Positions 1-12,536 of a stretch of DNA of 13,384 nucleotides are shown here, in pieces. Source of the DNA: Deltaproteobacteria bacterium. Lineage in GTDB: Bacteria > Desulfobacterota > JADFXK01. The first letter of the stretch is position 1, and each line of letters starts with the position of its first letter. Both the position numbers and the translations under genes were made by a program. Where the stretch lies: contig JADFYA010000056.1 of the NCBI GenBank assembly GCA_015233285.1, forward strand, positions 1 through 13,384, in the 5' to 3' direction. The notes under the pieces were generated by a model. The model saw nothing but the letters and a program-made list of their open reading frames with translations, was not told the origin of the DNA and did not search any database.

Positions 1-459
1 GAAAGAAACGTCCAAGGGTTGCAGGGCGTCAACTCCAAGTTGGAAGATGACCTGGTCCAGCACCAGGCCCGAGCCACCCGAGAGGCGGAGGCATTCAAGC
101 GAGACGTCAACAACCTCAATAACGAACTGCGCAAAGTGGTTTCAACGGCTGAAGACGCCGCCAAAGAAAAAGCCGAGGCGGTGCAACGGGCTGAGACGGC
201 CATAAGAGAGAAAAGCGCGGTCGAAAATCGACTGGCCGCAGTGCAGGGTGAGCTGGAAGCTGGGGAAAAAAGAGCCGCGGCTCTAGCCGAAAAAGCCAAA
301 ACCAATGCGGATACCTTAACCGCCCAGGTAGCCTTGTTGAAAAGCGAGTTGGAAAAGGCCATCACCATGGCGGAAACGGCCTTCAAAGAAAAAGTCGCGG
401 CTGAGGAAAAACTGACCACCATCCAGAAGAGGTGGGAACAATACATGGCGAGTAAATAA
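1..459 (+). CDS. Coiled-coil protein, 5'-truncated by window edge
   Basis: The reading frame is open from base 1 to a TAA at 457-459, so the true start lies to the left; the TTG at 19 has no ribosome binding site and is unlikely to be the start. The visible 152 residues are rich in Ala, Glu and Lys and form nearly uninterrupted heptad-like helix, without Pro, Cys or any catalytic motif. Two similar segments occur (AEDAAKEKAEAVQRAETAIREK and later AETAFKEKVAAEEK), suggesting internal repetition. The stop lies one base before the next start, so the two genes are almost certainly co-translated. No family can be named. A structural role (scaffold, linker or filament-binding rod) is inferred only from shape and from the neighbouring coiled-coil and actin-like genes. 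Confidence 0.8.
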   Translation, partial: ERNVQGLQGVNSKLEDDLVQHQARATREAEAFKRDVNNLNNELRKVVSTAEDAAKEKAEAVQRAETAIREKSAVENRLAAVQGELEAGEKRAAALAEKAKTNADTLTAQVALLKSELEKAITMAETAFKEKVAAEEKLTTIQKRWEQYMASK

Positions 460-460
460 T

Positions 461-1489
461 ATGGACTTTGATCGAGATGGAAATATCGCCGAGCTGACCA
501 GGCGCCGAAACCATCTGGCCGCGCTTTCGGATGAATTATCGGCTGAACTTGGATCCACCAAGTCGGAGGAGGAGGCCGATGCGGTCTATTTGCAGTCACT
601 CACCCGTGACTTTGCCCTGACTACCAGAAAAATTAAGGACCTTACCGCTGAGATTTTTTATTTTGAGAAAAAACGGACCGACGTGGACGAAGGTTCACAT
701 CTTCTGCTCCAGGAATTTGAACGCAGCCAATCAGAACTCGACCTGCTGAAAGAGCAAAAGCAGGCAATTGACCGGGATACGCCGCGGTTGGCCGAGGAGA
801 AGCTCCAAACCGAGGCGGCCTTGGACTCCTTTGACCATGAGCTCAGTCAACTCCGGCCTCGGGTGGAAGAGTTGGAATTGGAGTCCGATCAATTAGCCTC
901 TCAAGTAAATAACAATTTAACCAATGAATATACTAGATGGAATGAAGTCGAACTCGGTTTGACCCAAATGATGGAAAAGCTGCTTGGTTTGATACGAGAT
1001 AGAGACACGCTTAGTAACCAGATTCAAGCCCAAGAGGAAAAGTCTCTGCGGTTAGGACAAGAGGTCGATTCTCTTAACCAAGAAATACAGGACATGGAAG
1101 AGATCAGATTGCTCCTGGATAAGAAAGCCGTTTTAGTATCCGATCTGGACAAGTTAAACCGGGAGGTTGAGCCGGCGGAAAGAGAATTGGATATTCGACA
1201 ATCCGGGTTGGCGGCCAAGCGGGAGCAACTTGAGGTTATGTCTCGGCAAAATCAAGAGCGGATGGCGGCCGTCGCTTCTTTAGAACACGAACTGGGGCCA
1301 TATCTGGCGTCTATGCAGGCCCATGGAGCTGCGAAAGAAAAACGCGACGCGTTGATGTCGGCCACCCAAGGCGGTCTGACGGATCTGAGCAATTTATTTA
1401 ATGAGAACATGTCGTTAGGGAAAGACATAGATTTGACGTTGAATAAGATTGATGCCGCCCTTTCGTTTATTAAATCGACTTCAGAATAA
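461..1489 (+). CDS. Coiled-coil protein, 342 aa
   Basis: This ATG starts one base after the previous stop with only a weak GGCGAG at 447-452, so translation is probably coupled to the upstream gene. The 342 residues are almost entirely charged, heptad-patterned helix, with no Cys, no signal peptide and no membrane segment. A break falls around residues 148-165 (a run of Asn and an aromatic stretch) and the C-terminal 45 residues are less regular and Gly/Ser-containing, so the protein may be two rods with a small tail domain. There is no Walker A motif or hinge, which argues against a true SMC or Rad50 ATPase although such proteins will be its best generic matches. Function unknown; scaffold or adaptor role inferred from context. 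Confidence 0.85.
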   Translation: MDFDRDGNIAELTRRRNHLAALSDELSAELGSTKSEEEADAVYLQSLTRDFALTTRKIKDLTAEIFYFEKKRTDVDEGSHLLLQEFERSQSELDLLKEQKQAIDRDTPRLAEEKLQTEAALDSFDHELSQLRPRVEELELESDQLASQVNNNLTNEYTRWNEVELGLTQMMEKLLGLIRDRDTLSNQIQAQEEKSLRLGQEVDSLNQEIQDMEEIRLLLDKKAVLVSDLDKLNREVEPAERELDIRQSGLAAKREQLEVMSRQNQERMAAVASLEHELGPYLASMQAHGAAKEKRDALMSATQGGLTDLSNLFNENMSLGKDIDLTLNKIDAALSFIKSTSE

Positions 1490-1532
1490 AGTCTAAGACC
1501 CAACCTCAAGTCCTGAATTATGGAGATCCGCC

Positions 1533-2732
1533 ATGTTGAATCAAGACGCCGCACTCCCTCGGATGGACCAAAGATTGCAAGAAATCGCCGACAAAGTGGC
1601 GTCTCAACTTCAAGCCAGAAAGGTCAGAGACACCCTTAGGACGGAGATCAAACGGGCCGGCCTGGAGATCGAGTACATCAAAGATAAGCTGGATTTGATC
1701 CGGATGCGGCGGACTGAAACCCAGCAGGCCATTGCCGATCTTAAACCGCGGCTGTCCCTTATCCAACAGGATATCTCCACGCTAGAAGAAAAGAAGCAAT
1801 GGGCTGAAAAGGAGTATCTCAGGTTACAGTATCTGGAAAAAGACCTGGAAACCAAATTGGAGGTTTTGCCCCAGGTCAGGTCGGAGGTGATTAAACGGCG
1901 GCAGGAAGTCCGGAAAGCCACGGCCGAATTTGCGTCCCGGAAGACTGACCTGCAGGATATGCTCGTTCGGAAATCTGGTTTGGAAGAAGAGATTTCGTCG
2001 CTCAAGGACAGACACCGGCATCTTTCAGACAAGATAAATATGATGCGAACTGTTCGGGATATGGTCTCGGGCCGTAAACCCGATAACATGAGCGAGTCCG
2101 AATTTGAACACATAAAACCCCTGCTGAACACGTCCGTTGGTGAATATTCTCATGATGTTACAGCCCAAGTGACGCATCTAGAGCAAAGTATCGGTCACTT
2201 AAAATCGAAACTGGACCACAGTCTGACGGAGACAGAGCATCTTTTGGGTGATAAGGAGCAACGGGTCAAAACCGTGGCTGAATTGAAATCCGGGGTGGCG
2301 CCTGGAATTACGCCGCCGATCATCCTATCCGAAATGAAGGAGCTGGAGAGCCAAAAAAAGGCCGCAGCCGATAAGCTGAAGACCATTAGTGGCCAAATAG
2401 CCCAGCTGGACAACCAGACCAAAGCCGTGGATACGGAATTGGGTCAAGCCCGGGAAACTGAGACCGGCTCTAGGGGTGAATTAACCCGTCTTACGGCCAT
2501 CAAGCACGACCTGGGCCAGGCCGCGAATATGGAGCAGGAGATAATCAGATTGAATCGGGAAATCCGCCGGTTGGAGATAGAGGCTGAAGCCGGTCAGGCC
2601 GTGTGTGGGCTTATTCGGCAGGTGGAGCAAGAGATGAAGACGGTTGATCAAGAATTACTGTCGGCCGTTGAGCAGGAAAAAGAGATGTATGAGCAACTTT
2701 TGGGGGAGTTAGAAAAACCTTTGACCGCTTGA
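1533..2732 (+). CDS. Long coiled-coil protein, 399 aa
   Basis: The start is supported by GGAG at 1522-1525, seven bases upstream, and follows the previous gene by 43 bases. The protein has three helical coiled-coil blocks (about residues 10-178, 206-250 and 264-395) separated by two breaks: a polar, aromatic segment at 179-205 and a Gly/Pro segment at 251-264 (GVAPGITPPIILSE). A single Cys lies near residue 356. Neither end carries a nucleotide-binding head, so it is not an SMC-type ATPase; a filamentous or tethering protein is the likeliest form. It stands in the middle of the run of helical genes that ends in an actin-like gene. Family not recognised; cytoplasmic because no signal peptide or membrane helix is seen. 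Confidence 0.85.
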   Translation: MLNQDAALPRMDQRLQEIADKVASQLQARKVRDTLRTEIKRAGLEIEYIKDKLDLIRMRRTETQQAIADLKPRLSLIQQDISTLEEKKQWAEKEYLRLQYLEKDLETKLEVLPQVRSEVIKRRQEVRKATAEFASRKTDLQDMLVRKSGLEEEISSLKDRHRHLSDKINMMRTVRDMVSGRKPDNMSESEFEHIKPLLNTSVGEYSHDVTAQVTHLEQSIGHLKSKLDHSLTETEHLLGDKEQRVKTVAELKSGVAPGITPPIILSEMKELESQKKAAADKLKTISGQIAQLDNQTKAVDTELGQARETETGSRGELTRLTAIKHDLGQAANMEQEIIRLNREIRRLEIEAEAGQAVCGLIRQVEQEMKTVDQELLSAVEQEKEMYEQLLGELEKPLTA

Positions 2733-2748
2733 TGACCCCTCGAAGTAA

Positions 2749-2754
2749 TATAAT
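2749..2754 (+). promoter_or_regulatory. Possible -10 box (TATAAT) before the HEAT-repeat gene
   Basis: A perfect TATAAT lies in the 124-base gap between the 399-aa coiled-coil gene and the HEAT-repeat gene. No good -35 sits at 16-18 bases; TTGACC at 2721-2726 is 22 bases away. If used, it would give a leader of roughly 95 bases before the ATG at 2857. Chance occurrence in an AT-rich patch is quite possible. Confidence 0.25.
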
Positions 2755-2856
2755 GTTAAGGAGTTTTGTTTTTACCCCGTTTTGCCGGGACACCAACACA
2801 CTAAACCTGACCCGTGCTCCCAGATATAAACACGCAACACGATGGAGGATCATCTC

Positions 2857-4530
2857 ATGGTAAATGAATATACTGACAGAACAGGGTTTTGGGGTGGAGT
2901 GGCCAAGGTGTTGAACGCCGGAGGCAGCGCCACGGTATACACCTATGATGCCACAGCCACCGCCTTGGGGAAATTTTTTTCGGTGATCAAGAAGGCCCCG
3001 AGCCTGCCTGGAAAAGCCAAGGGGATATTCACCGTAGGGCTGGGCGGAATCAGACCGGGAGAAATCAAGATACTCGAAGCAAAGATTAAAGATTATGAAA
3101 ATAAGATCAAGGTGTTGTATTATGAGATCGGCAAAGAAGGGGCCAAGTCCGAAGCCGCAGACGCCGCTATGGCCCATGAGTCTGTTACCCAACTAATTTC
3201 TGATGTTAGAGAATATGAAAAGGAAATCCAAAGACTCCAAAAAAGAATTGAAGAGGTAAAGGAACAACGAGAGGCGGCGGCTTCGGTCAAGAAGAAACAT
3301 CAGGAAGACGTCGCGTCGGCCAAAGAAAGTGAACGGATGTCCGAAGAGCAGATATTAACCGGCGTGGCTTCGGCGATTAAGAGATCAATCAAAGAAGGAC
3401 TCTTTGAGTCTGTTTCTGATCGGGCCGTGTTTGAAAGAGTGGCCAATGATCTTCTAGATAGCGAGACGGAGATCAAGATCTTGGCGGCGGCGGAATTAGG
3501 CAAGATGGGTAATCAGGCGGCCGTGCCAATTTTTATGGAGGCGGTGAAGTTTGACAACCCAGCCCTGGTCTCCGAGATAATTAATTCGCTCATCGGTATC
3601 GGCGATGCACGGGCCATTTCATTATTTAAGAAAATGATTTACCACCCCAGCTACCAGGTCCGGATCGGCTGTCTCAGGGGACTTTATAAACTGGCCGGGT
3701 CCGACGATGCGGGGCCGCTGCTGATAGAAAGTCTGCGGGATAAACATCCGGAAGTAAGAAGAACGGCCATTACCTTCATCGGGTGGAAGGATTATGCCGA
3801 CGCCACTCCGGGTTTGATCCAATGCCTTAAAGACGGAGAGCCCCGTGTCCGAAAGGCGGCCGTTTCAGCCCTGGCCAATCTCAAAGACAAGGCGGCGGTA
3901 TTGCCCTTGATCAAGCTGTTATCCGAAAAAGAGATAGAGATTCGGGAGAAAGCTTTAGACGCCATCAGGTTGATTACCGGCGAGGAGATCGTCTGTGACG
4001 TTCACGCGTCCGGCAAGGCTTTGGCCGAATCCATCGACAATCTCCGCGACTGGTGGCAGGAAAAGCGGATGGGTGACCAGGAGCCGGCGGCTATGGAATC
4101 GAGCCTGGTTGAGCCTGATCTTCTTCAACCTTCCGAGGAGGTTGAGCCTGGTGTCGGCGAAGTTGCGGAACCTCTGGAGACTGCTTCGGCGGCTGCAATC
4201 GAGACCACGGAAGAAATCGAGGCGGCAGAAGTGACCGAACCGGAATCCCAACCTGAAGCTTTGGCTGATGCCGAGACTGAATACGAGTCAGAGGCTGAAC
4301 CGGAAGAGAGCGTCTCTCCGGCGGCTGAGGAGTTATCAGATTCAGAGCCGTCTACCGTGGCGTCGGATGATCTGGAGGAAGAAGCAGTTTCATCCCAGCC
4401 GGCAGAGGAGCTTGAGTCTCCCTCTGAATCGCCGGAATTGACCCCAGCCGAGATCACTGAGACTAAGCCAGAAAAGGTCCAGGCAGAAACAGAAGAAGCA
4501 GAGGAAGATGATGGCTACATCACCAGATGA
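2857..4530 (+). CDS. HEAT-repeat protein with coiled coil and acidic tail, 557 aa
   Basis: I chose ATG 2857 over the in-frame ATG 2842 because a strong GGAGG (2845-2849) lies seven bases before it and would be inside the longer form. Residues 10-65 are Gly/Ala-rich and partly hydrophobic (possible surface or membrane contact). Residues 68-160 are a coiled coil. About 185-375 form HEAT-like helical repeats, seen as recurring patterns such as DPEVR/AAVSALA, for example KHPEVRRTAITFIG and GEPRVRKAAVSALANL. From about 405 to 557 the chain is low-complexity Glu/Ser/Pro/Ala, very acidic and surely disordered, ending DDGYITR. HEAT repeats usually bind other proteins, so an adaptor or docking role is likely. 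The last 20 bases overlap the next gene in another frame. No family name is assigned. Confidence 0.85.
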   Translation: MVNEYTDRTGFWGGVAKVLNAGGSATVYTYDATATALGKFFSVIKKAPSLPGKAKGIFTVGLGGIRPGEIKILEAKIKDYENKIKVLYYEIGKEGAKSEAADAAMAHESVTQLISDVREYEKEIQRLQKRIEEVKEQREAAASVKKKHQEDVASAKESERMSEEQILTGVASAIKRSIKEGLFESVSDRAVFERVANDLLDSETEIKILAAAELGKMGNQAAVPIFMEAVKFDNPALVSEIINSLIGIGDARAISLFKKMIYHPSYQVRIGCLRGLYKLAGSDDAGPLLIESLRDKHPEVRRTAITFIGWKDYADATPGLIQCLKDGEPRVRKAAVSALANLKDKAAVLPLIKLLSEKEIEIREKALDAIRLITGEEIVCDVHASGKALAESIDNLRDWWQEKRMGDQEPAAMESSLVEPDLLQPSEEVEPGVGEVAEPLETASAAAIETTEEIEAAEVTEPESQPEALADAETEYESEAEPEESVSPAAEELSDSEPSTVASDDLEEEAVSSQPAEELESPSESPELTPAEITETKPEKVQAETEEAEEDDGYITR

Positions 4531-5164
4531 CGCCCGGGGCTCGGATGATAGGAAGGAAAATTCCTGGCTGGAAAAGAGGCGGAGTGTGCTTGAGCGGTTG
4601 CGCCGGGAAAAAACCCAAGCCCGGCATAATCTGGCTGAGATCAATGCGGCCCGACAACGGCTGCGCACCGAAGTGGATCAGCTCGAGGCGGAGAATCACT
4701 CTTTGTCCCGTCAGGTGAAGGAGCTCGATGGTCGGCTTTTCGAACTCAAGCAGCAAACCCGGCAATCCTATGCCCAGTCGGATAAACTTAAGGCCAATTT
4801 GGTCGAGATAGTGGCCGCGGAAAGAAACCTGGCTGAGGAGATAGCCTTTTTCGAGTCGGAGAAGGCTCGTCTATCCCAGGAACATTTGGCTGTTTCCCAT
4901 CAGGTCGGGGCCAATATGATGGTTCTTGACCAGACAGCCAAAGATATTGATTTCTTGAATGGGGAAGTAGAGGCGACCATCGCCAAGATGAACATGGCGG
5001 AGGGCGAAGTGGCCGTAGTTTACAATGGGGTGAGCCATCTAGATGACAAGATCACCGGGATGGTCACCTCCTTGCAAGACTTGTCTCTCCGCATGAAACG
5101 GATGGAGACGCATATAAAGACGGTTTATTACCAGATGAAAAAAAATGCTCAGGAGAGCTTATGA
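4511..5164 (+). CDS. Coiled-coil protein, 217 aa
   Basis: The start lies inside the end of the HEAT-repeat gene (20-base overlap), with AGGA at 4502-4505. ATG 4511 has a spacing of five bases and is preferred to the adjacent ATG 4508, which has two. The first 15 residues are polar and disordered; residues 18-130 are a highly charged coiled coil; the C-terminal 85 residues are helical but less charged and richer in Met and Val, a possible small interaction domain. No Cys, signal peptide or catalytic motif is present. The end overlaps the next start by four bases (ATGA). Its size and pattern resemble the other helical proteins in this run, particularly the 194-aa one, but I cannot show homology by eye. 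Function unknown; structural partner inferred. Confidence 0.85.
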   Translation: MATSPDDARGSDDRKENSWLEKRRSVLERLRREKTQARHNLAEINAARQRLRTEVDQLEAENHSLSRQVKELDGRLFELKQQTRQSYAQSDKLKANLVEIVAAERNLAEEIAFFESEKARLSQEHLAVSHQVGANMMVLDQTAKDIDFLNGEVEATIAKMNMAEGEVAVVYNGVSHLDDKITGMVTSLQDLSLRMKRMETHIKTVYYQMKKNAQESL

Positions 5165-6009
5165 TCACAGCCGATACGGTTAAAGAAAGACAAAACGCCC
5201 AGGTGTGGACGGAAGGCCCGGGAGCAAAGGCCGATCTTGATCTTGATGAGCGAATCAACGAGGCTTTGAAAGATGACGATGTTTCGGCGGCTTCCCGCCA
5301 CTTAAAAGAAGTCTCGGTCCCCAAAATCGCCGGCCTTGACCTCCTGAAGGGGGGAGGGTATGATGTTGATTTAGAAAAAACCATCAGCGACATGCTCTCC
5401 ATCATCAGGAACATGGAATCCCAACTGGAGAACGTTCTCAGCATCAATTCCCTTTTAGAAAAAGATCTCCGCGAATCGAAGATGATCGGGGGTCGACTAA
5501 AGGCCGATAAGGTTCGACTTGAGGGCGAAGTCGCCAAATTAAAGGAGGAAATTCCCTCTAAACGGGACCTCCAGATTGAACTAGATCACTTGATTGATGA
5601 CAGAAACATCGCTCAGAAGAGCATCCGCGATCTTAAGACAAAGCATCAGAACATCCAGCAAGAATTGGTCCAATACCAAAATCGGATCGGTAACTTAGAA
5701 GAAGAAAAGAAAGACTTCATCACCGAGATCAACTTCCTGGAGTCCAAATTGCATGCCTCGGCCGAAAAAATGAACCGGTGCGAAGCCGAGCTGACCTTGT
5801 TGCGGGGTGAGAAAATATCCCAGCGGGACAAGACCAAGGCGCTCGAAGAGGAGCTGCAGGAAATTTTGGCGGAAAAGTATCGTCTCCAAAAGGAGATCAA
5901 GGAGACCAAAGAAGCCATGGCCGAGCTCCATGCGGCCCTGACCGATTCCAGGCGCCTGGCCAAGAAGTCATTTTACAAAGGCCCGGAGGAAACGAAGGAA
6001 GATATCTAA
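5161..6009 (+). CDS. Coiled-coil protein, 282 aa
   Basis: ATG overlaps the preceding TGA by four bases (ATGA), with AGGAG at 5151-5155 giving a five-base spacing, a typical translational-coupling layout. Residues 1-70 are not coiled coil: an acidic, mixed region ending in a Gly-rich turn (LLKGGGYDVD, 61-70). Residues 72-265 are a long charged coiled coil broken once near EIPSKRDLQ (about 130-138). The C-terminus is Lys-rich (SRRLAKKSFYKG), then acidic. One Cys is present. The distinct N-terminal region could be a binding head and the helix a spacer; this is inference. No family recognised and no enzyme motif seen. Confidence 0.85.
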   Translation: MITADTVKERQNAQVWTEGPGAKADLDLDERINEALKDDDVSAASRHLKEVSVPKIAGLDLLKGGGYDVDLEKTISDMLSIIRNMESQLENVLSINSLLEKDLRESKMIGGRLKADKVRLEGEVAKLKEEIPSKRDLQIELDHLIDDRNIAQKSIRDLKTKHQNIQQELVQYQNRIGNLEEEKKDFITEINFLESKLHASAEKMNRCEAELTLLRGEKISQRDKTKALEEELQEILAEKYRLQKEIKETKEAMAELHAALTDSRRLAKKSFYKGPEETKEDI

Positions 6010-6011
6010 TC

Positions 6012-6095
6012 ATGCCGTCGGTCATTGGTGATTTGCAAAGATTAACCAGCCAGGGGCAGGGTGTGATTAACCGGCGGAGAGTAATGGGAGGCTGA
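6012..6095 (+). CDS. Possible 27-aa microprotein in the intergenic gap
   Basis: Between the 282-aa and 194-aa coiled-coil genes, an ATG at 6012 opens a 27-codon frame whose TGA ends one base before the next ATG (6097). AAGGAAG at 5995-6001 lies about ten bases upstream of the start. The peptide is basic (pattern NRRRV near the end). The stop placed right before the next start would fit a leader peptide or translational coupling. It is short enough to arise by chance, and the next gene has its own GGGAGG inside this frame. Confidence 0.25.
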   Translation: MPSVIGDLQRLTSQGQGVINRRRVMGG

Positions 6096-6096
6096 T

Positions 6097-6681
6097 ATGG
6101 AAGACACCCTTGATGTCCAATTTATCTCGGAAGAAGAGGCGGTCGAGGAGGCTGATTATCAAGAACTAGCCGAGGGGCTTAGGGAGTTAGACGAATTAGA
6201 GAAGATGAGGCGGTTTTTATCTGCTGAGAATACCAGGTTACGCCGTCAAGTTGATATCTTGGCGGGGGAGCTGGAGGGTTTAAGCATCGCCTTAAGTTCT
6301 ACCCACTCCTATATCTCCGCCTACCTGGAACGGCGGCAAAAGAGCCTGGACAATCTAGGCCAACAGAAAGACCGGCGAGAAAAATTAATCTTGGAAATAG
6401 ACCAATTGCACTTAAAAGTAAAGGCGGCGGAAGAGGACGAAAGGTCCCTGGTCAATTTATCCGATTCATTGCAAGAAGAGCTCGATGAAATCAAGGAAGA
6501 AAGGATGCTGGTCCGGCAAAAGTTTGATGATATCAAATCAGGGATTGATCATATGGCCAAGAATAAAGAGATGAAGATACCCAGTCTAAAATCTTGCGAC
6601 GAGGTGCTGCGACAAATTTATCGAGTATTTAGAGAGACACAGCATAGAATGGATGTTTCGTTAATTATGAATAAAAGATGA
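6097..6681 (+). CDS. Coiled-coil protein, 194 aa
   Basis: GGGAGG at 6086-6091 sits five bases before the ATG. The first 20 residues are very acidic (FISEEEAVEEADYQE); residues 25-150 form a charged coiled coil; the last 40 residues form a basic helical segment with one Cys (KSCDEVLRQIYRVFRETQ) and a basic end. No signal peptide, membrane helix or catalytic motif is visible. It overlaps the following 128-aa gene by four bases (ATGA), so the two are probably made in matched amounts and may form a complex. Family unknown; another helical component of the scaffold-like set is the most cautious description. Confidence 0.85.
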   Translation: MEDTLDVQFISEEEAVEEADYQELAEGLRELDELEKMRRFLSAENTRLRRQVDILAGELEGLSIALSSTHSYISAYLERRQKSLDNLGQQKDRREKLILEIDQLHLKVKAAEEDERSLVNLSDSLQEELDEIKEERMLVRQKFDDIKSGIDHMAKNKEMKIPSLKSCDEVLRQIYRVFRETQHRMDVSLIMNKR

Positions 6682-7064
6682 GCCTAACGGACGCAAACAG
6701 GCTGCTGGATCGCTTAGATCGGGGCCTTGACTATCTGAACCGCCGCTTTGAGCTGATGACTGTGTCCCGGCGGGTTAGCCTCTCTCGAGATATAAGATAC
6801 TTACTCCTCGATAACATTGCTAGATGCGTCAGACTCACCTTCTATGATCCCGACGACCGGGCCACCATCTTGTTCCAATTTGTTTACGCCTTGGAAGATA
6901 ATATTCAGACGCCAGAGTCCATCGACATCAGCCTCAACGAGTCGCCGGGGTATATCGCCTTTGATGTATTTATCGAGTTCACCGAAACTTTCCTAAGCCT
7001 TAACCGGGAAGATCAAGAATTGCTTATAAACAATACGGAAATTACTTGGCAAACGTACTATTGA
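6678..7064 (+). CDS. Hypothetical 128-aa protein, last gene of the coiled-coil run
   Basis: The start overlaps the previous stop by four bases. Unlike its neighbours this is not a coiled coil: it shows a helical N-terminal half with many Arg and Leu (residues 1-55), a YDPDDRATILFQFVYAL segment (56-72) and an aromatic-rich C-terminus ending in WQTYY. The balanced mix of hydrophobic and charged residues suggests a small compact globular domain. I do not recognise the family. Position at the end of the run, with tight coupling to the 194-aa coiled-coil gene, suggests it is a partner of that protein; this is inference. A 176-base gap follows before the next gene. Confidence 0.8.
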   Translation: MSLTDANRLLDRLDRGLDYLNRRFELMTVSRRVSLSRDIRYLLLDNIARCVRLTFYDPDDRATILFQFVYALEDNIQTPESIDISLNESPGYIAFDVFIEFTETFLSLNREDQELLINNTEITWQTYY

Positions 7065-7087
7065 TCAAAAAAAATGTAAAACCGTTA

Positions 7088-7116
7088 TTGCTTTGTTTCG
7101 TTAACAGTGTTAATTT
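7088..7116 (+). promoter_or_regulatory. Possible sigma-70-like promoter before the STAS gene
   Basis: In the 176-base gap before the STAS gene, TTGCTT (7088-7093) and TAATTT (7111-7116) are separated by exactly 17 bases, each matching four or five of six consensus positions. This would give a leader of about 120 bases. Similar matches arise by chance in AT-rich spacers, so this is a candidate only. Confidence 0.3.
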
Positions 7117-7240
7117 GCCGAAAATCGGTATGATCCGAATTTATATCCCCACTTAGAACTCTATTAGCCTCGCCGCTTACTGCTGTTCGGAGGCCATGAG
7201 AACTTACTATCGGGAATGAAGATTTAGGGAGGCTTGGTAT

Positions 7241-7546
7241 ATGGCGATTAAAACACAGTTATCTGATGATGGGAAGATATTGACCATTGCTGTAACGGGA
7301 AGACTTGATATTATGTCCCATGGCGACTTTACCCAGGCCTACGCCACTGGGATAGACAGCGTGGCCAAATGGATTGTTGATATGTCCGCCACAGAATACA
7401 TAGACAGTTCCGCTTTGGGGATGCTCTTGATACTTCGAGAGAAAGCCGGGGGAGATAAGGCGGATATCACCCTGCTCAATCCCAACCCCGACGTTAGAAA
7501 GACGTTGCGCACGGTAACTTTTGATAAATTTTTCAAGATTGAATGA
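7241..7546 (+). CDS. STAS-domain protein, anti-sigma factor antagonist type (101 aa)
   Basis: AGGGAGG at 7226-7232 lies eight bases before the ATG. The whole 101-aa protein is a single STAS domain of SpoIIAA/RsbV type: beta strand ILTIAVTGRLDI near the start, then the signature YIDSSALGMLLILRE (53-67) in which the Ser after Asp (about Ser56) is the usual phosphorylation site, then a strand DITLLNP and a C-terminal helix. In this family the unphosphorylated protein binds and occupies a serine-kinase/anti-sigma factor and releases that kinase's other partner. The next gene downstream encodes just such an ATPase, making a partner-switching pair. The target need not be a sigma factor; in this context it may be one of the structural proteins. 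Function of the domain is clear, the output is not. Confidence 0.9.
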   Translation: MAIKTQLSDDGKILTIAVTGRLDIMSHGDFTQAYATGIDSVAKWIVDMSATEYIDSSALGMLLILREKAGGDKADITLLNPNPDVRKTLRTVTFDKFFKIE

Positions 7547-7609
7547 CCGCAGCCGGCCGACTGATGACCATATCCCGTTTCATTTGGGCAAACAGACGCC
7601 CTGGGTCGG

Positions 7610-7623
7610 CAATGTCAACATTG
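7610..7623 (+). promoter_or_regulatory. Small dyad before the HATPase gene
   Basis: CAATGT and its exact inverse ACATTG are separated by two bases in the 93-base gap, ending four bases before the GCGGGGAT ribosome-binding region of the next gene. It could be an operator half-site pair or weak hairpin affecting translation. Short enough to be chance. Confidence 0.2.
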
Positions 7624-7639
7624 TCGGCGGGGATTGACC

Positions 7640-8269
7640 ATGTCGGCGTTTTTGTTCATTAATGGAACATCAAAGGTTATATCTAATCGTGTTCTTGTCT
7701 TGCTCATGAAACTATCAATAGATGTCAAAAAAAGCCGATCCAATTGGCGATTGTCGGTCAATCTTTATCCACCTCGGATTTATGGCGGCCGGTTTATCGA
7801 CGCCCTGGTCGGTTTGCTGATTCATATCCAAAAAGAAATAGTTGTTCATAAGTGGGATATCTATTCTATCCTATCGGAACTCTATGCTAACGCCGTGGAA
7901 CACGGGTTGCTGGGATTGAGTTCCGCCCAAAAGAAGACGGCCGCGGGATTCGCCGACTACTGCTTGAAGCTGCAAGAGAGATTGGCCGCCCTGGAGCATG
8001 GTGGGGTCAATATAGATATCCGGCATTTCTCAGAAGGGCAGGGAGGGAGATTGGTCTTCTCGATAAAGGACGATGGCCCCGGTTTTGATTACGTCCGATT
8101 TTCGGCCTGCCCGGCGGATGAGTCAACCTATTGCGGCCGAGGAATTTCACTTGTCCGCTCTTTGTGCCGGGAATTAACTTACCAAAGCTGCGGAAATATC
8201 GTCGAGGCGGTTTATGTCTACGCGGCTGACTCAGCCTGGTCCTCCACTAATAAATGTGAGGGGGAATAG
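7640..8269 (+). CDS. GHKL/HATPase_c protein, anti-sigma (RsbW/SpoIIAB-like) serine kinase type, 209 aa
   Basis: GGGGA (7629-7633) lies six bases before ATG 7640, preferred over the in-frame TTG 7634. The ATP-binding fold is clear: N box ELYANAVEHG (80-89) with the key Asn and following His-Gly, G1 box DDGPGFD (144-150), and G2 box GRGISLVRSL (166-175). No phospho-acceptor His domain is present, so this is not a sensor histidine kinase. The segment after the N box (GLLGLSSA, then AAGFADYCLKLQERLAALEHG) resembles the C-terminal ATPase region found fused behind response-regulator/SpoIIE-phosphatase proteins, as I recall that family; here it stands alone. It likely phosphorylates the STAS protein encoded upstream and sequesters another partner. 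The first 35 residues are hydrophobic and basic without recognisable function. Confidence 0.85.
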   Translation: MSAFLFINGTSKVISNRVLVLLMKLSIDVKKSRSNWRLSVNLYPPRIYGGRFIDALVGLLIHIQKEIVVHKWDIYSILSELYANAVEHGLLGLSSAQKKTAAGFADYCLKLQERLAALEHGGVNIDIRHFSEGQGGRLVFSIKDDGPGFDYVRFSACPADESTYCGRGISLVRSLCRELTYQSCGNIVEAVYVYAADSAWSSTNKCEGE

Positions 8270-8283
8270 ATCTAGCCCCTTTT
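8259..8283 (+). terminator. Weak candidate terminator after the HATPase gene
   Basis: AGGGG (8259-8263) can pair with CCCCT (8276-8280) around a 12-base loop, followed by TTTTCT. The stem is short and begins inside the last codons of the HATPase gene. Together with the sigma-54 promoter 60 bases downstream it suggests a transcript boundary, but the hairpin alone is marginal. Confidence 0.3.
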
Positions 8284-8343
8284 CTACCCGAGAATCTCTC
8301 ATCAATTGCAAAAGAAATTATTAGGCCATCCGCGCCTGAAGCC

Positions 8344-8359
8344 TAGCACGATTTTTGCT
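8344..8359 (+). promoter_or_regulatory. Sigma-54 promoter (-24/-12) of the actin-like gene
   Basis: TAGCACG, four bases (ATTT), then TTGCT matches the sigma-54 consensus TGGCACG-N4-TTGCW with one deviation (A for the first G of the -24 GG). The GC of the -12 element is at 8357-8358, predicting transcription start near 8370. This lies after the ATG at 8365, so that codon would not be in the message, and leaves a leader of about 34 bases before the well-spaced start at 8404. Sigma-54 promoters need an activator ATPase; none is visible in the window. Confidence 0.6.
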
Positions 8360-8403
8360 TCCCTATGGGCCACATCATAAAGAGAATAAAGGAGACGAAA
8401 GAT

Positions 8404-9576
8404 ATGGAGCTTGACGGCATTCATAAACGGATCGAAGCGATGAAGGTTCATCTTGGTGATGACACATCTCTCTCAGACGATAAGGGGGAAGCTAGAATCG
8501 ATCGGCAGGTTGAGAAGGCGGTAGAGACCTCACATAAGACGGTCGTGGCCACCGAAAAAGAGATTGGTGAGGACGCAGAAAAGCCAAAAGGACCTGTGGG
8601 TTTGGATATCGGCACCAGCTTCATCGTGGCGGCCCAAAATAAGCTTAACTATATTCATTCCGTCAAACAAGCCAATGCCTTTTTCACCGTGCCCAAATCA
8701 AAGTTCGCTAAGTCAATTTTGAACAAAAACGAAGTGTTGTATTATGAACAAGGCGAACAATACTACATTGTCGGCTTTTCCGCCGAAAGCTTCGCCAACA
8801 TGTTCAATACCGACACCCGACGTCCTATCAAAGATGGGCTGCTGAGCGCAACGGAAAAAGACGCCATAACCGTTATCCAGGCCCTGGTCGGCACCTTGAT
8901 CCAGCGGCCGAAGTTTTTTGGGGAGACGCTTTGCTTCGCCATCCCTGGTGAACCGCTTAACGGCGCGGGATCGGCGGTCGTCTACCATGAGGCCATGATC
9001 AAGAGATCCCTTAGCCTGATGGGTTATACCCCCATATCTCTTAACGAAGGCATGGCGGTGGTGATTTCGGAGCTGGCCGATGATAATTTTACCGGCATCG
9101 GGATCAGCATGGGCGGCGGGATGTGCAACATTTGTTTGTCATACCTGTCATTTCCGGTCATTACTTATAGCCTCCAGATGGCCGGGGATTATATCGATTC
9201 CAAGGTGGGCTCATCTCTGGGTGAGCCGGCGACTAAGATCAAGACCATCAAAGAAGAAGGTCTGGATCTGTCAAAGGAGCCTAAAGATCGAGTTATGACG
9301 GCCCTACATATATTCTATGACGACCTGATCGCCAACCTGATCGCCAGCTTGCAGCGAGCTCTTACGTCCTCGGACCAAATCCCCAAAATCGCCAAACCCA
9401 TCCCCATCGTATTAAGCGGCGGCTCAGCCAGGCCGAAGGGCTGTGTAGATAAATTCGCCGAGGCGCTCAAGCAAGTTAGTCTGCCTGTAGAAATCTCCAG
9501 CGTCCGTCTGGCCGAAGACCCGTTCAATACCACGGCCAAAGGGGCGTTGATCATGGCCATGACCGAAGCAGCCTAA
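8404..9576 (+). CDS. Actin-like ATPase of the MreB/MamK superfamily, 390 aa
   Basis: ATG 8404 is chosen over ATG 8365 because AAAGGAG (8388-8394) lies nine bases upstream and the sigma-54 start point falls between the two. Residues 1-62 are a charged, helical extension. The actin fold follows: phosphate-1 loop VGLDIGTS (65-72); the MreB/MamK-like RRPIKDGLLS (139-148); LCFAIPGEP (176-184); SLNEGMAVV (212-220) with the usual Glu; phosphate-2 loop GISMGGGM (233-240); and adenosine motif VLSGGSARPKG (336-346). The phosphate-2 Asp found in MreB, MamK and Hsp70 (DIGGGT-type) is replaced by Ser, so nucleotide hydrolysis may be altered. It is expected to form cytoplasmic filaments, with the upstream coiled-coil and HEAT proteins as candidate partners. 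Closest subfamily (MamK, Mad28, MreB or a separate Alp) cannot be decided by eye. Confidence 0.9.
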   Translation: MELDGIHKRIEAMKVHLGDDTSLSDDKGEARIDRQVEKAVETSHKTVVATEKEIGEDAEKPKGPVGLDIGTSFIVAAQNKLNYIHSVKQANAFFTVPKSKFAKSILNKNEVLYYEQGEQYYIVGFSAESFANMFNTDTRRPIKDGLLSATEKDAITVIQALVGTLIQRPKFFGETLCFAIPGEPLNGAGSAVVYHEAMIKRSLSLMGYTPISLNEGMAVVISELADDNFTGIGISMGGGMCNICLSYLSFPVITYSLQMAGDYIDSKVGSSLGEPATKIKTIKEEGLDLSKEPKDRVMTALHIFYDDLIANLIASLQRALTSSDQIPKIAKPIPIVLSGGSARPKGCVDKFAEALKQVSLPVEISSVRLAEDPFNTTAKGALIMAMTEAA

Positions 9577-9593
9577 GCAACCACCAAACATGG

Positions 9594-9632
9594 GCGGGCT
9601 GGACATCAGAATATTAATGGCGTCCAACCCGC
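9594..9632 (+). terminator. Hairpin just after the actin-like gene
   Basis: GCGGGCTGGAC (9594-9604) pairs with GTCCAACCCGC (9622-9632) over 11 positions with one mismatch and a 17-base loop, starting 17 bases after the stop codon. The position fits a transcription terminator or a 3'-end stabilising stem, but no clear U tract follows. Confidence 0.45.
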
Positions 9633-9634
9633 GG

Positions 9635-10008
9635 CATGTTATTAAATGTCATTGACTTAAGGGGCCGAGCGGATTGGGGCCGGGTCCCCCGGGTGGCGCT
9701 TGGCTGCTAGATTGGGTAACCCCTAGGGAATATTAGTATGGCGCCCGGCCCAGGTTGAGCCTAACCTCGGCGATGGATTATCATGGCCAATCAGCTCGTC
9801 TCGGTTGAAATAAAAACGGTCGCGTTATTTGTTTTAAATAGACAATTCCGCTTCAGCCCCAAAGGGGCGCTCCAGGTTAGACCAGGGCCACGCCCTGGGC
9901 CATTTGGCGCACCAGGCAGGATGGGGCCATCCTGGGTCATAGGATGGGGCGGGTCATGCGAGAACCAAGCCTGGAAGCTTAAGTCAACGACATTGACATG
10001 TTATTAAA
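9635..10008. repeat. Hairpin-rich element with terminal inverted repeats and 12-nt direct repeats
   Basis: The left arm TAAATGTCATTGACTTAAG (9643-9661) matches the reverse complement of 9978-9996 at 17 of 19 positions. Outside or overlapping these arms, CATGTTATTAAA occurs twice in direct orientation (9635-9646 and 9997-10008). The interior has no credible gene but several exact stems: 9677-9684 with 9744-9751 (GGGCCGGG), 9856-9860 with 9864-9868 (GCCCC), 9882-9888 with 9892-9898 (CCAGGGC) and 9917-9924 with 9927-9934 (CAGGATGG). The layout resembles a non-autonomous miniature transposable element or a structured RNA; it also separates two convergent operons and may stop transcription from both sides. 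The right direct repeat ends eight bases from the stop of the - strand AAA+ gene. Confidence 0.5.
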
Positions 10009-10016
10009 ATTAGACG

Positions 10017-11573
10017 TCACCTATCTCGCCATCGGTTTATTTCCTCCAAAATCTCTTTCGGGGTGACCCTGGTTCGTCCCCGCATCAGGCTATAAGCCGC
10101 AGCTCCGTCGACCAAGGAGATGGCTTTGCTGGGTAAGTACTCGTCACGGATATAGATTCGGCTCAGTTCAATGGCCGAGACCAGCGCCTCGTCGTCAATA
10201 CTTAGGCCATGATGTTTTTCCAAGCTCGGCAAGACGCCTCTCAAAATTTCCAACGTCTCATGGGCGGACGGCTCATGGACCATAACTTTCTTGAATCGCC
10301 TGGCCAGGGCCGGGTCTTTTAATAAGCGATCTGCGCCGGTTATGGTCGTGGCCCCAATGCAAGGGAATTCTCCTCTGGCCAGGACCGGCTTCAAGATGTC
10401 TCCCACCCCGATGCCTCCTTCAGCCGCCCCGGCGTCAACCAAGGTATGTATCTCATCAAAAAAAATGATCAAGCCGCGCTTGTTCTCTATTACTTCAGAC
10501 ATTAGCCCTTCTACCCTGGCCTCGAGATCTCCTCGATATCTGGTTCCAGCAATCAGACCGGCCAGCGAGATTGAATAGACCATCCGATTTTTCAGATGGG
10601 GCGGGACGCGTCCCTGATAGATAGCTCTGGCCAGGCCGTCGACCATCGCCGTTTTCCCGACCCCGGGACGCCCGATGAGTAAGGGGTTGTTGGCTTCCAT
10701 CTGAGCCAGAATCTGGATGACCCGGTCGATCACCTCGGTGGCCCCGATAACGGGTTTAATCCTTCGGAGATAGTCCTGGTCGGTTAGCTTCTGGCCATAT
10801 CGGTCAAGATACTCCATGACTTTTGCATCGGAGGAAATCCGGCTAGATTCAAAAAAAGGCTCCAGTTCTGAAGGCGGCTTATACGAATAAGGCACAAAAA
10901 AGTAAACCAAGACGCCATGTTTGTCGGCCTGGGCGTATAATTCTTTGGTTAGCGCTCGAAGCTCGCCCACCACGGGGTTGATGGTCTCTTCGGCGCCCAA
11001 GTAGTGATGAAAATCTTCAAAGATGTAAGCGATGCGTTTTTGTGGCCGGCTAATCACAAACTTGATGGCCTCTTTCGGATCGCTTAGTCGCTGGACATTA
11101 ATATTGTCAAACAATGGATAATGAACCGATAGCTGTTCGATTTTGAACCCACCGGCCTTAGACCAGGTGACGGGAATCCTACCCTGGGCCCTGATCGTCT
11201 CAGCCAGGTTTGTTAAATCCTCCAGGTGGTTATGATAGGCCAGCAGATGGAAAGGCCGCCGAATTTCAATTGATTTCTTCGGCTCTAAAGTCCATCTCGG
11301 AGTCGCCGAGTCATCCGCATAATGCCCGGTTATGGACGCCAGTCCTTCCCCATCAAGCAGCATATCTCTGGCGATGGAAAAAAGCTCGGGCGTCCCGGAG
11401 TCGATCAAGAAGCCTTTATCCCCGGCCTTTTTTTTTATTTGATGCACAATCATGGGGGAAACTGGATAGTCGCCGGCTTGTTGTCTCATTCTTAGAATAT
11501 CTTCATCGGAAAATAAAACACGTTCTTTCCGGAAAGCGCTTTCACAGGCCAGCTCTATAATGAAATTTCCCAT
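10017..11573 (-). CDS. AAA+ ATPase: Ycf46-like N-terminal region plus ClpA/ClpB D1-type module, 518 aa
   Basis: The C-terminal half is a Clp/Hsp100 first AAA module: Walker A GRPGVGKT (301-308), AGTRYRGDLEARVE (342-355), Walker B LIIFFDEIHTL (368-378), LKPVLARGEF then sensor-1 region CIGATT (405-410), arginine pair in DPALARRFKKV (420-430), and the lid segment YLPSKAISLVDGAAA (479-493). There is no second AAA module, no Clp N-domain and no ClpP loop visible. The N-terminal ~270 residues contain VTWSKAGGFK (135-144), IAYIFEDFHHYL (181-192) and a VYFFVP...PPSELEPFF stretch (223-241), which resemble the degenerate RecA-like domain of Ycf46-type ATPases. A remodelling ATPase acting on an unknown substrate is likely. 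It is the second gene after the TauE-like transporter (42-base gap), with only a poor GGGAAA as binding site. Confidence 0.85.
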   Translation of the reverse strand: MGNFIIELACESAFRKERVLFSDEDILRMRQQAGDYPVSPMIVHQIKKKAGDKGFLIDSGTPELFSIARDMLLDGEGLASITGHYADDSATPRWTLEPKKSIEIRRPFHLLAYHNHLEDLTNLAETIRAQGRIPVTWSKAGGFKIEQLSVHYPLFDNINVQRLSDPKEAIKFVISRPQKRIAYIFEDFHHYLGAEETINPVVGELRALTKELYAQADKHGVLVYFFVPYSYKPPSELEPFFESSRISSDAKVMEYLDRYGQKLTDQDYLRRIKPVIGATEVIDRVIQILAQMEANNPLLIGRPGVGKTAMVDGLARAIYQGRVPPHLKNRMVYSISLAGLIAGTRYRGDLEARVEGLMSEVIENKRGLIIFFDEIHTLVDAGAAEGGIGVGDILKPVLARGEFPCIGATTITGADRLLKDPALARRFKKVMVHEPSAHETLEILRGVLPSLEKHHGLSIDDEALVSAIELSRIYIRDEYLPSKAISLVDGAAAYSLMRGRTRVTPKEILEEINRWRDR

Positions 11574-11615
11574 TTCGGGTTTCCCAAGGGAATATGGTTT
11601 TGCTGAGGTGAGATA

Positions 11616-12536
11616 TTAGAAAAAAAGCAGCCTCACACCCATAAACATGAACACGGGGATGAGCAATTTGAGCAGGATATTGCCTGGAATGTCGTTGGAT
11701 AATTTCGCTCCTACCTGGGCTCCGATTATCGCCCCGATGGACAGCGTTATGGCCGGGCGATACAGTATGTCGCCATTGACCATGAACGGGATCAGAGTGA
11801 AACAAGTGTTGATGGCCGTTACATAATGGGAAGTAGCGCTGGCTATATGGACTGGGAAGGCAAGAAGATAGACGAGAACCGGGACCAGTATCAGCCCTCC
11901 CCCGATACCAAGAAATGTTGAAAAAATGCTGATTAGAATAGTGATGGCAATGCCCAACCCTTCATTGAACTGGTATCTATAGGTATTGCCCAGCTCATCG
12001 GTGATGATTCGTTTAACATAGCCAGGCTCCGGTGATAGATTGCGCGGCCGGAGATTGGGTCTGCCCGAATTGAGGACGAGATGATAACGTGAGCCTCGGA
12101 CTCGTTGTTGATAGACACTGGGCGCCGAAACGCCGTTGCCGGCCCAAATCCGTTGTTGCAGAACCGCCTCCGAGGTAATCGGCTTTAGATAAATGTAGAA
12201 AGCTAAGGCCAGAAGAAATGAACCAAACAAGAAGGTAAAGATGTTAAGATGAACATAATATACGGCGAAGGTGCTAATCAGCGAGCCCGGAATGGTGGCC
12301 AACCCAAATTTAGTGCCGCTGACTATGTCCACCCTCTTGTCTCGTAAATAGGCCAGGCTGCCGGACAGGGTATTAAAAAAAATAACAAATAGTGAAATGG
12401 CGATAACGTTCGGCGTGGGGTAATGGTAGACTATCGCAATCACCGGCACTAGTAAAGGACCACCGCCAATGCCGACCAGGGTTCCATAACCTCCGACTAA
12501 GAATCCCCAAATTAGGAGACCTAATATCTCTTCCAT
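11616..12536 (-). CDS. TauE/SafE-family membrane transporter, 306 aa
   Basis: GGAAG lies six bases before the ATG on the - strand. The protein has two homologous membrane halves, each with the family hallmark: GIGGGPLLVPV near residues 22-32 and GIGGGLILVPVL at 210-221. Hydrophobic helices fall at about 5-37, 43-62, 74-95, 97-117, and then 193-226, 232-252, 260-278 and 287-306. Between the halves lies a polar loop of about 75 residues (119-192), longer than in many family members. The family exports sulfite, sulfoacetate or other small organosulfur anions; the substrate here cannot be told. It is the first gene of a two-gene - strand operon with the AAA+ ATPase. TauE-like proteins also occur in magnetosome clusters of some Desulfobacterota, which is of interest here but not diagnostic. 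Confidence 0.9.
   Translation of the reverse strand: MEEILGLLIWGFLVGGYGTLVGIGGGPLLVPVIAIVYHYPTPNVIAISLFVIFFNTLSGSLAYLRDKRVDIVSGTKFGLATIPGSLISTFAVYYVHLNIFTFLFGSFLLALAFYIYLKPITSEAVLQQRIWAGNGVSAPSVYQQRVRGSRYHLVLNSGRPNLRPRNLSPEPGYVKRIITDELGNTYRYQFNEGLGIAITILISIFSTFLGIGGGLILVPVLVYLLAFPVHIASATSHYVTAINTCFTLIPFMVNGDILYRPAITLSIGAIIGAQVGAKLSNDIPGNILLKLLIPVFMFMGVRLLFF

Follow-up and report, generated by a model that had tools for sequence, protein, structure and literature searches.

A probable magnetosome chain-assembly module with a STAS gene beside mad28 in a Desulfobacterota contig

The window analyzed here is the whole 13,384-nucleotide stretch of contig JADFYA010000056.1 (GenBank assembly GCA_015233285.1, Deltaproteobacteria bacterium). 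We read its gene content, with a rough probability of 0.94, as the chain-assembly part of a Desulfobacterota-type magnetosome gene cluster, comprising three coiled-coil genes, mad23–26, mad28, and probably mad27; the cluster is cut at the left window edge, probably immediately downstream of mamK and mad10. Homology, gene order, genome co-occurrence, and a modeled actin fold were found for the window module or its relatives. A first-pass annotation of this DNA had proposed a cytoskeleton or organelle-positioning apparatus with unknown cargo. The apparatus was recognized correctly, given the magnetosome chain module, and Mad23 homology and MamK linkage now identify the cargo as the magnetosome. 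The arrangement, which that annotation had called unusual, is not new: the module is a known system, the magnetosome chain organization dissected in Desulfovibrio magneticus RS-1, where the network has already been tested (PMC12748827). An unknown cargo thus becomes a named organelle, and the window offers a well-conserved example of a system whose dissection is only now under way. Two features may be new, namely the recurrence of a STAS gene near mad28 and the membership of Mad28 in the Volactin family, with penicillin-binding-protein neighbors elsewhere.

Gene content and protein identities

Positions 1–9576 hold eleven genes on the plus strand (A to K), followed by three further genes (L to N).

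A: 1–459, plus; C-terminal 152 residues of a coiled-coil protein, 5' end cut off at the window edge
B: 461–1489, plus; coiled-coil protein, 342 residues
C: 1533–2732, plus; coiled-coil protein, 399 residues
D: 2842–4530, plus; Mad23 by homology, 562 residues, with coiled coil, HEAT repeats, and acidic tail
E: 4508–5164, plus; Mad24 by position, coiled coil, 218 residues; alternative start at 4511
F: 5161–6009, plus; Mad25 by position, coiled coil, 282 residues
G: 6097–6681, plus; Mad26 by position, coiled coil, 194 residues
H: 6678–7064, plus; small protein predicted to be helical, 128 residues, unnamed
I: 7241–7546, plus; STAS-domain protein
J: 7634–8269, plus; anti-sigma-type HATPase (GHKL) protein, 211 residues; TTG start uncertain
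K: 8365–9576, plus; assigned to Mad28, actin-like, 403 residues
L: 10017–11573, minus; AAA ATPase, 518 residues, probably Mad27
M: within the L–M block 10017–12536, minus; TauE/SafE permease
N: at the window end; response-regulator gene (receiver domain), only its start inside the window

Judged from its sequence, D is Mad23. In the homologue search, for which 120 of 240 matches were listed, it was 53% identical over 75% of its length to the "Magnetosome protein Mad23" of Ca. Magnetananas rongchengensis (E = 8.4e-132), and it joins a coiled coil to HEAT repeats (HEAT_2, 2.4e-27) and the acidic tail described by the first-pass annotation.

K matched the Pfam family Volactin (PF25216) with 267 bits against a cut-off of 35 and failed the NCBIfam MamK model (28.6 bits; cut-off 400). 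A profile scan with one genome per species yielded 166 confirmed loci, of which the best 80, with 47–93% identity to K, were taken. Among named magnetotactic bacteria, K was 60% identical to the protein of Desulfamplus magnetovallimortis BW-1, 59% to that of Ca. Magnetominusculus xianensis, and 57–60% to those of three loci of Ca. Magnetobacterium casense. According to excerpts of PMC10653835, BW-1 has a single mad28, and a Ser in Mad28 replaces the phosphate-2 Asp of MamK. K and every one of the 80 rows used for the tree carry this Ser, which therefore marks the whole family rather than its magnetotactic members alone. A quick maximum-likelihood tree of the 80 rows, supported by the Shimodaira–Hasegawa-like approximate likelihood-ratio test (SH-aLRT) only and drawn with midpoint rooting, grouped K with its counterpart L001 in an 18-row clan that includes BW-1 (SH-aLRT 95) and consists of 12 rows with module genes nearby and six others. 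A separate clan of 37 rows (SH-aLRT 97) carried informative titles mostly from Desulfobulbaceae or Desulfurivibrio. The model of K has a predicted actin-family fold; its best PDB match in Foldseek was the MamK filament 5ljv (E = 3.4e-8), and MreB, FtsA, and actins were among the further structural matches listed. From the BW-1 grouping and the Ser change, K is Mad28 as far as its sequence tells.

The coiled-coil proteins were evaluated by hydrophobic power at a 3.5-residue period, expressed as a z score against 300 shuffles. The six proteins that the first-pass annotation had called coiled coils bore out that description, with scores of 6.8 (A), 3.4 (B), 2.2 (C), 3.4 (E), 3.3 (F), and 3.8 (G), compared with 1.9 over the whole length of D, which is weak, 0.0 for H, and 0.8 for K. 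Because the receiver N scored 2.3, the test alone leaves C, the weakest of the six, undecided. The Pro plus Gly content was 2.6–6.3% in the six proteins and 3.9% in H.

Identities to the nearest relatives fell from A (68% to the copy on the sister contig L082 and 64% to L001) to B (46% to both; family in six loci). C is a fast-evolving protein, with 58% identity over 185 residues to L082, 46% to L001, and 15–46% in the alignment of its family, which occurs in eight loci, including BW-1. A profile search with C returned three proteins, including that of the window itself, none of which bears a Mad name, and A–C were therefore left unnamed. From the numbering, one might guess that A is among mad20–22. 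The full-length copy of A in L082 (7413–8954) has 513 residues and carries an N-terminal receiver domain (Response_reg, 31.5 bits; cut-off 30.2), which may be another signaling link in the chain module.

H belongs to a family found in four of the 80 loci (L001, 65% identity; L013, L018, and L020, 38–40%), always between the mad26-type gene G and the STAS gene, with a very conserved core, DI(K/R)YLLLDNIA. No domain family reached its cut-off for H; bacHORMA gave a weak match (E = 0.065, 13.5 bits; cut-off 35.6), and its AlphaFold model had a mean predicted local distance difference test score (pLDDT) of 46. L contains AAA and lid domains, and its homologue in BW-1 comes directly after the mad26-position gene. 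Mad27 has been described as an ATPase with a gene of approximately 1.5 kb, so that L is probably Mad27 by ATPase type, size, and BW-1 position. The genes for L and M (10017–12536) are inverted as a block relative to 11396–14202 of L001, and a permease 57% identical to M was also seen near mad28 in L036.

The first-pass annotation had also described a run of eight same-strand genes followed by a switch pair and an actin-family ATPase. This layout held: A–H encode six coiled-coil proteins, one HEAT-repeat protein, and one small helical protein, and I (STAS), J (HATPase), and K (actin-like) follow on the same strand. Its junctions were equally accurate, with a one-base gap between A and B, four-base overlaps at both E/F and G/H, and a D/E overlap of 20 or 23 bases, depending on whether the ATG at 4511 or that at 4508 is used. 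A promoter and terminator scan of 6900–10100 was uninformative (five promoter-like sites with 4.3 expected; no terminator-like sites with 3.2 expected).

Gene order and linkage to magnetosome genes

At least one of D–G lay near the K-family gene in 12 of the 80 loci, and none was seen in the fetched stretches of the other 68. Absence here means unseen in the fetched stretch, some of which end close to K: among these 68 loci, at least 1 kb upstream of K was covered in 59, 5 kb upstream in 40, and 5 kb on both sides in 33, and some of the genomes have Mad23 elsewhere. The order B-C-D-E-F-G-(H-I)-K was found in L001, L013, and L020, and the same order without H-I in L002, L003, and L005, the last with an extra small open reading frame (ORF) before D and another before K. 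Since this order recurs in other species, the arrangement goes beyond chance.

The families of E, F, and G, present in 9, 10, and 12 of the 80 loci, followed mad23 in the same consecutive order; the E family came after the Mad23 family in nine loci, with the contig of L018 starting before E, and homologues of F in the module loci were 35–72% identical. We infer from gene position that E is Mad24, F is Mad25, and G is Mad26. In the cluster of Fundidesulfovibrio magnetotacticus FSS-1, as given in excerpts of PMC7951924, the locus tags run Mad17, Mad30, Mad11, MamK, Mad10, three numbers, Mad23, one number, Mad25, Mad26, Mad28, two numbers, and Mad29. A, B, and C occupy the places of the three unnamed genes between Mad10 and Mad23, and the match of order thus renders the window as three pre-mad23 genes, mad23-mad24-mad25-mad26, and mad28.

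The closest relatives were two metagenome-assembled genomes (MAGs) also labeled "Deltaproteobacteria bacterium", nDJH8bin5 (L001; K 90% identical) and nDJH13bin5 (L004; K 93%), the L004 contig beginning inside K. A second contig of nDJH13bin5 (L082) encodes, in order, a MamB/MamM-like cation diffusion facilitator (CDF) transporter, FeoB, a 159-residue protein, MamK (481 bits; cut-off 400), a Mad10-like protein, A, B, and C, with small ORFs between genes and C cut by the contig end; "Mad10-like" is here a label inferred from position. The order on L082 agrees with that of the FSS-1 locus tags. In nDJH8bin5, contig L081 encodes MamK (482 bits), FeoB, a CDF transporter, and an HtrA-type protease. 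Both sister MAGs had matches above the cut-offs for MamK and the magnetochrome domain.

Genome-wide tallies were based on 65 genomes, obtained from the 66 of 80 loci that were submitted, with L024 left out; the remaining 14 loci were all Nitrospirota records, five of them from genomes already included. Mad23 was counted at E <= 1e-30, MamK above 400 bits, and magnetochrome above its cut-off; the draft MAGs miss genes, and an apparent absence may reflect incompleteness. MamK was present in 46 genomes, Mad23 in 25, and magnetochrome in 25. Mad23 and magnetochrome occurred together in 22 genomes and each alone in three, and neither was found in 37 (Fisher p = 3.5e-11, related genomes treated as independent). 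All 25 Mad23 genomes encoded MamK, and none of 14 control genomes had magnetochrome or MamK over the cut-off; loose MamK matches (E <= 0.001) occurred in all 65 genomes and in 10 of the 14 controls. MamK-type genes without Mad23 or magnetochrome were found in 18 of the 65 genomes, one of them a Desulfamplus draft. This co-occurrence ties the Mad23 module, and not the Mad28 family, to magnetosome genes. The first-pass annotation had proposed checking whether the actin-like and coiled-coil genes co-occur in related genomes; they do, as judged by the 12 of 80 loci and the 25 of 25 Mad23 genomes with MamK. Tandem MamK-type genes, 37–44% identical to the sister MamK, were also noted at 7794–10602 of L083 and 8236–11045 of L084, in genomes that lack both Mad23 and magnetochrome.

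The STAS and HATPase genes beside mad28

I contains a STAS domain (1.1e-12) with a DSSALG motif, which we take to be typical of phospho-accepting STAS proteins, and J matched HATPase_c_2 (4.7e-8) and shows what are presumably the N-box and G-box motifs of GHKL kinases. The two genes thus place a STAS partner adjacent to a GHKL kinase, as in a partner switch of the SpoIIAA/SpoIIAB type. A STAS gene was found near mad28 in 8 of the 12 module loci and in none of the 68 others, which span 1.05 Mb (p = 1.7e-8); when only loci with 5 kb on both sides were considered, the counts were 5 of 8 and 0 of 33 (p = 7.5e-5), both p values being uncorrected for relatedness. In L001, L013, L018, L020, and L047 the gene lies between the mad26 side and mad28, as in the window, and in BW-1 it follows mad28 by 182 bases.

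These genes may be read in two ways. One is that I and J form a general stress-type sigma-factor switch whose position here is accidental and which leaves the chain proteins unaffected; to this we give even odds. The resemblance to SpoIIAA/SpoIIAB-type partners favors this explanation, as do the STAS genes of L003 and L036, which lie 4.6–4.9 kb from mad28 on the opposite strand, and the four module loci (L002, L005, L037, and L051) in whose fetched stretches no STAS gene was seen. In the sister L001, moreover, J is reduced to a 59-bp remnant, and J itself is therefore not conserved. Against it stand the restriction of the STAS gene to module loci in both comparisons, its position between the mad26-position gene and mad28 in five of them, and the absence of a sigma factor among the family matches of the window. 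No phosphatase was among these matches either, the receiver gene N being cut by the window end.

The other, rather doubtful possibility is that the STAS protein and kinase, with a receiver-phosphatase in some species, constitute a phosphorylation switch acting on the mad23–28 scaffold or on Mad28 polymerization. J was 32–38% identical to proteins in L003, BW-1 (L014), and L036; the BW-1 relative is a nearby receiver-SpoIIE phosphatase-HATPase protein, and proteins belonging to its sequence cluster also occur in L003 and L036. Through such a switch, the two genes might regulate chain assembly or expression of the cluster. Literature searches found no paper joining the magnetosome with a STAS domain or a magnetosome gene cluster with anti-sigma, and no signal input to the deep-branching chain system; in a broader search, "magnetosome" appeared once among the matches listed, in a Leptospira paper. 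The repeated finding of a STAS gene suggests that magnetosome chain assembly may have a control layer; the switch, if real, would put chain building under direct signal control.

The wider Mad28 family and known systems

Several observations weigh against assigning the module to the magnetosome. The names Mad24–26 rest on position and on the gene orders of BW-1 and FSS-1, not on named sequences, and the identification of the BW-1 protein as Mad28 relies on the published statement that BW-1 has one copy. The magnetosome link of the window runs through its sister species, where the CDF transporter was best to MamB with 237 bits, below the cut-off of 350, and the protease was best to a general Do-protease model, with MamE second (179 bits; cut-off 800). 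No Mad23 was found in nDJH13bin5, whose L082 contig ends inside C. The clan of K includes six loci without the module seen nearby, the module locus L051 (Nitrospirota) falls in another clan, and the N-terminal half of K is poorly modeled by AlphaFold (mean pLDDT 54). Despite a Mad28-family gene, 19 of the 65 genomes lacked MamK over the cut-off, Mad23, and magnetochrome, so that K alone is no proof of a magnetosome role.

Mad28 belongs to the Pfam Volactin family, and this actin-like family is wider than the module. Outside the module, with Pfam families assigned from one representative per neighbor family, the K-family gene was accompanied by an HrpA-type helicase in 30 loci, a pentapeptide-repeat protein in 26 (one doubtful), and a class A penicillin-binding protein in 25. 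Many of the helicase loci (e.g., L007, L008, L012, L019, and L033) also had the pentapeptide-repeat and penicillin-binding proteins, and a few of their genomes (e.g., L012 and L038) have Mad23 and magnetochrome elsewhere. In five Nitrospirota loci (L066, L071, L072, L074, and L079), a class A penicillin-binding protein gene lies 16–64 bases 3' of the K-family gene; the extra N-terminal region of this protein resembles, by eye, a small protein beside other Mad28 genes.

It is accordingly conceivable, although very unlikely, that the window encodes a non-magnetosome cytoskeleton of the wider family, serving cell shape or envelope growth, and that the magnetosome genes of its relatives lie elsewhere and are unrelated. 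The 68 loci without a visible module gene, the other clan of 37 loci, 30 of which have the helicase gene beside K, and the penicillin-binding-protein neighbors, including those directly downstream in Nitrospirota, fit this explanation. K, however, falls outside the 37-locus clan, every Mad23 genome has MamK, and in the sister species A-B-C follow mamK and the Mad10-like gene. Least credible of all is a DNA or plasmid segregation machinery of a ParM-like actin with SMC-like coiled-coil proteins: several window proteins have weak SMC matches and 25 other K loci have a MinD/ParA-type ATPase (probable Mad29), but the SMC matches lie far under their cut-offs, as expected of coiled coils, no SMC head or centromere-binding protein was among the family matches of the window, the best structural matches listed for K were MamK, MreB, FtsA, and actins, and the magnetosome linkage speaks against it. 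The match of E to SMC_prok_B (9.3e-9; 33.6 bits, cut-off 567) is not specific, because it is far below the cut-off and B scores equally high. The ParM/SMC reading, resting on weak coiled-coil matches, was set aside; no ParM title was among the 50 structural matches listed for K, which does not exclude the ParM family.

For the magnetosome chain module, homology with RS-1 suggests a mechanism in which the coiled-coil and HEAT proteins would join magnetosomes to form subchains, Mad25 would serve as a hub touching the other partners and Mad28, Mad28 would polymerize and keep the chain along the curved cell side, and MamK, encoded outside the window, would space the subchains. The Volactin placement raises the question of whether this curvature-following magnetosome actin was recruited from cell-envelope actin, and the neighborhoods outside the module hint that an envelope-linked actin may have been its source. 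By word count, "volactin" was absent from the texts of PMC12748827 and PMC12713370, and Mad28 from that of the volactin paper (PMC10869688); the sole co-mention of volactin and magnetosome found was in a paper on actin networks of eukaryotes.

Among known systems, the window most resembles the magnetosome gene cluster of RS-1, in which a HEAT and coiled-coil Mad23, coiled-coil partners, and the actin-like Mad28 are encoded together with mamK and mad10, and in which Mad10, Mad20, Mad23, Mad25, Mad26, Mad28, and MamK have been deleted and their interactions examined, including by two-hybrid assay (PMC12748827). RS-1 Mad28 was reported on magnetosomes (excerpts of PMC12713370), and polymerization and localization to magnetosomes and cell curvature were reported for the BW-1 and RS-1 proteins (excerpts of PMC10653835 and PMC12713370). 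The window seems to differ from the RS-1 network in that H and the genes for the STAS and HATPase proteins separate mad26 from mad28, and within the window mad28 is not followed by a mad29-type gene. BW-1 shares the homologues of C-D-E-F-G-L in order, a Mad28 of 60% identity, and a STAS gene beside mad28, but there the STAS gene comes after mad28, and the HATPase belongs to the receiver-SpoIIE phosphatase-HATPase protein. FSS-1 shares the succession from Mad10 to Mad28, whereas its cluster is reported, in the excerpts of PMC7951924, to lack mad20–22, mad24, and mad27 (a putative mad27 lying outside) and to continue with mad29. MamK (5ljv) shares the actin fold predicted for K and positions magnetosomes, but K is below the MamK cut-off and carries Ser where MamK has the phosphate-2 Asp. 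Another actin-like protein, Bbp, occurs in giant cable bacteria (excerpts of PMC10580974). Volactin of Haloferax volcanii is in the same Pfam family as K and forms dynamic filaments (excerpts of PMC10869688), but it has an archaeal cell-shape role, and a shared family does not show a shared function.

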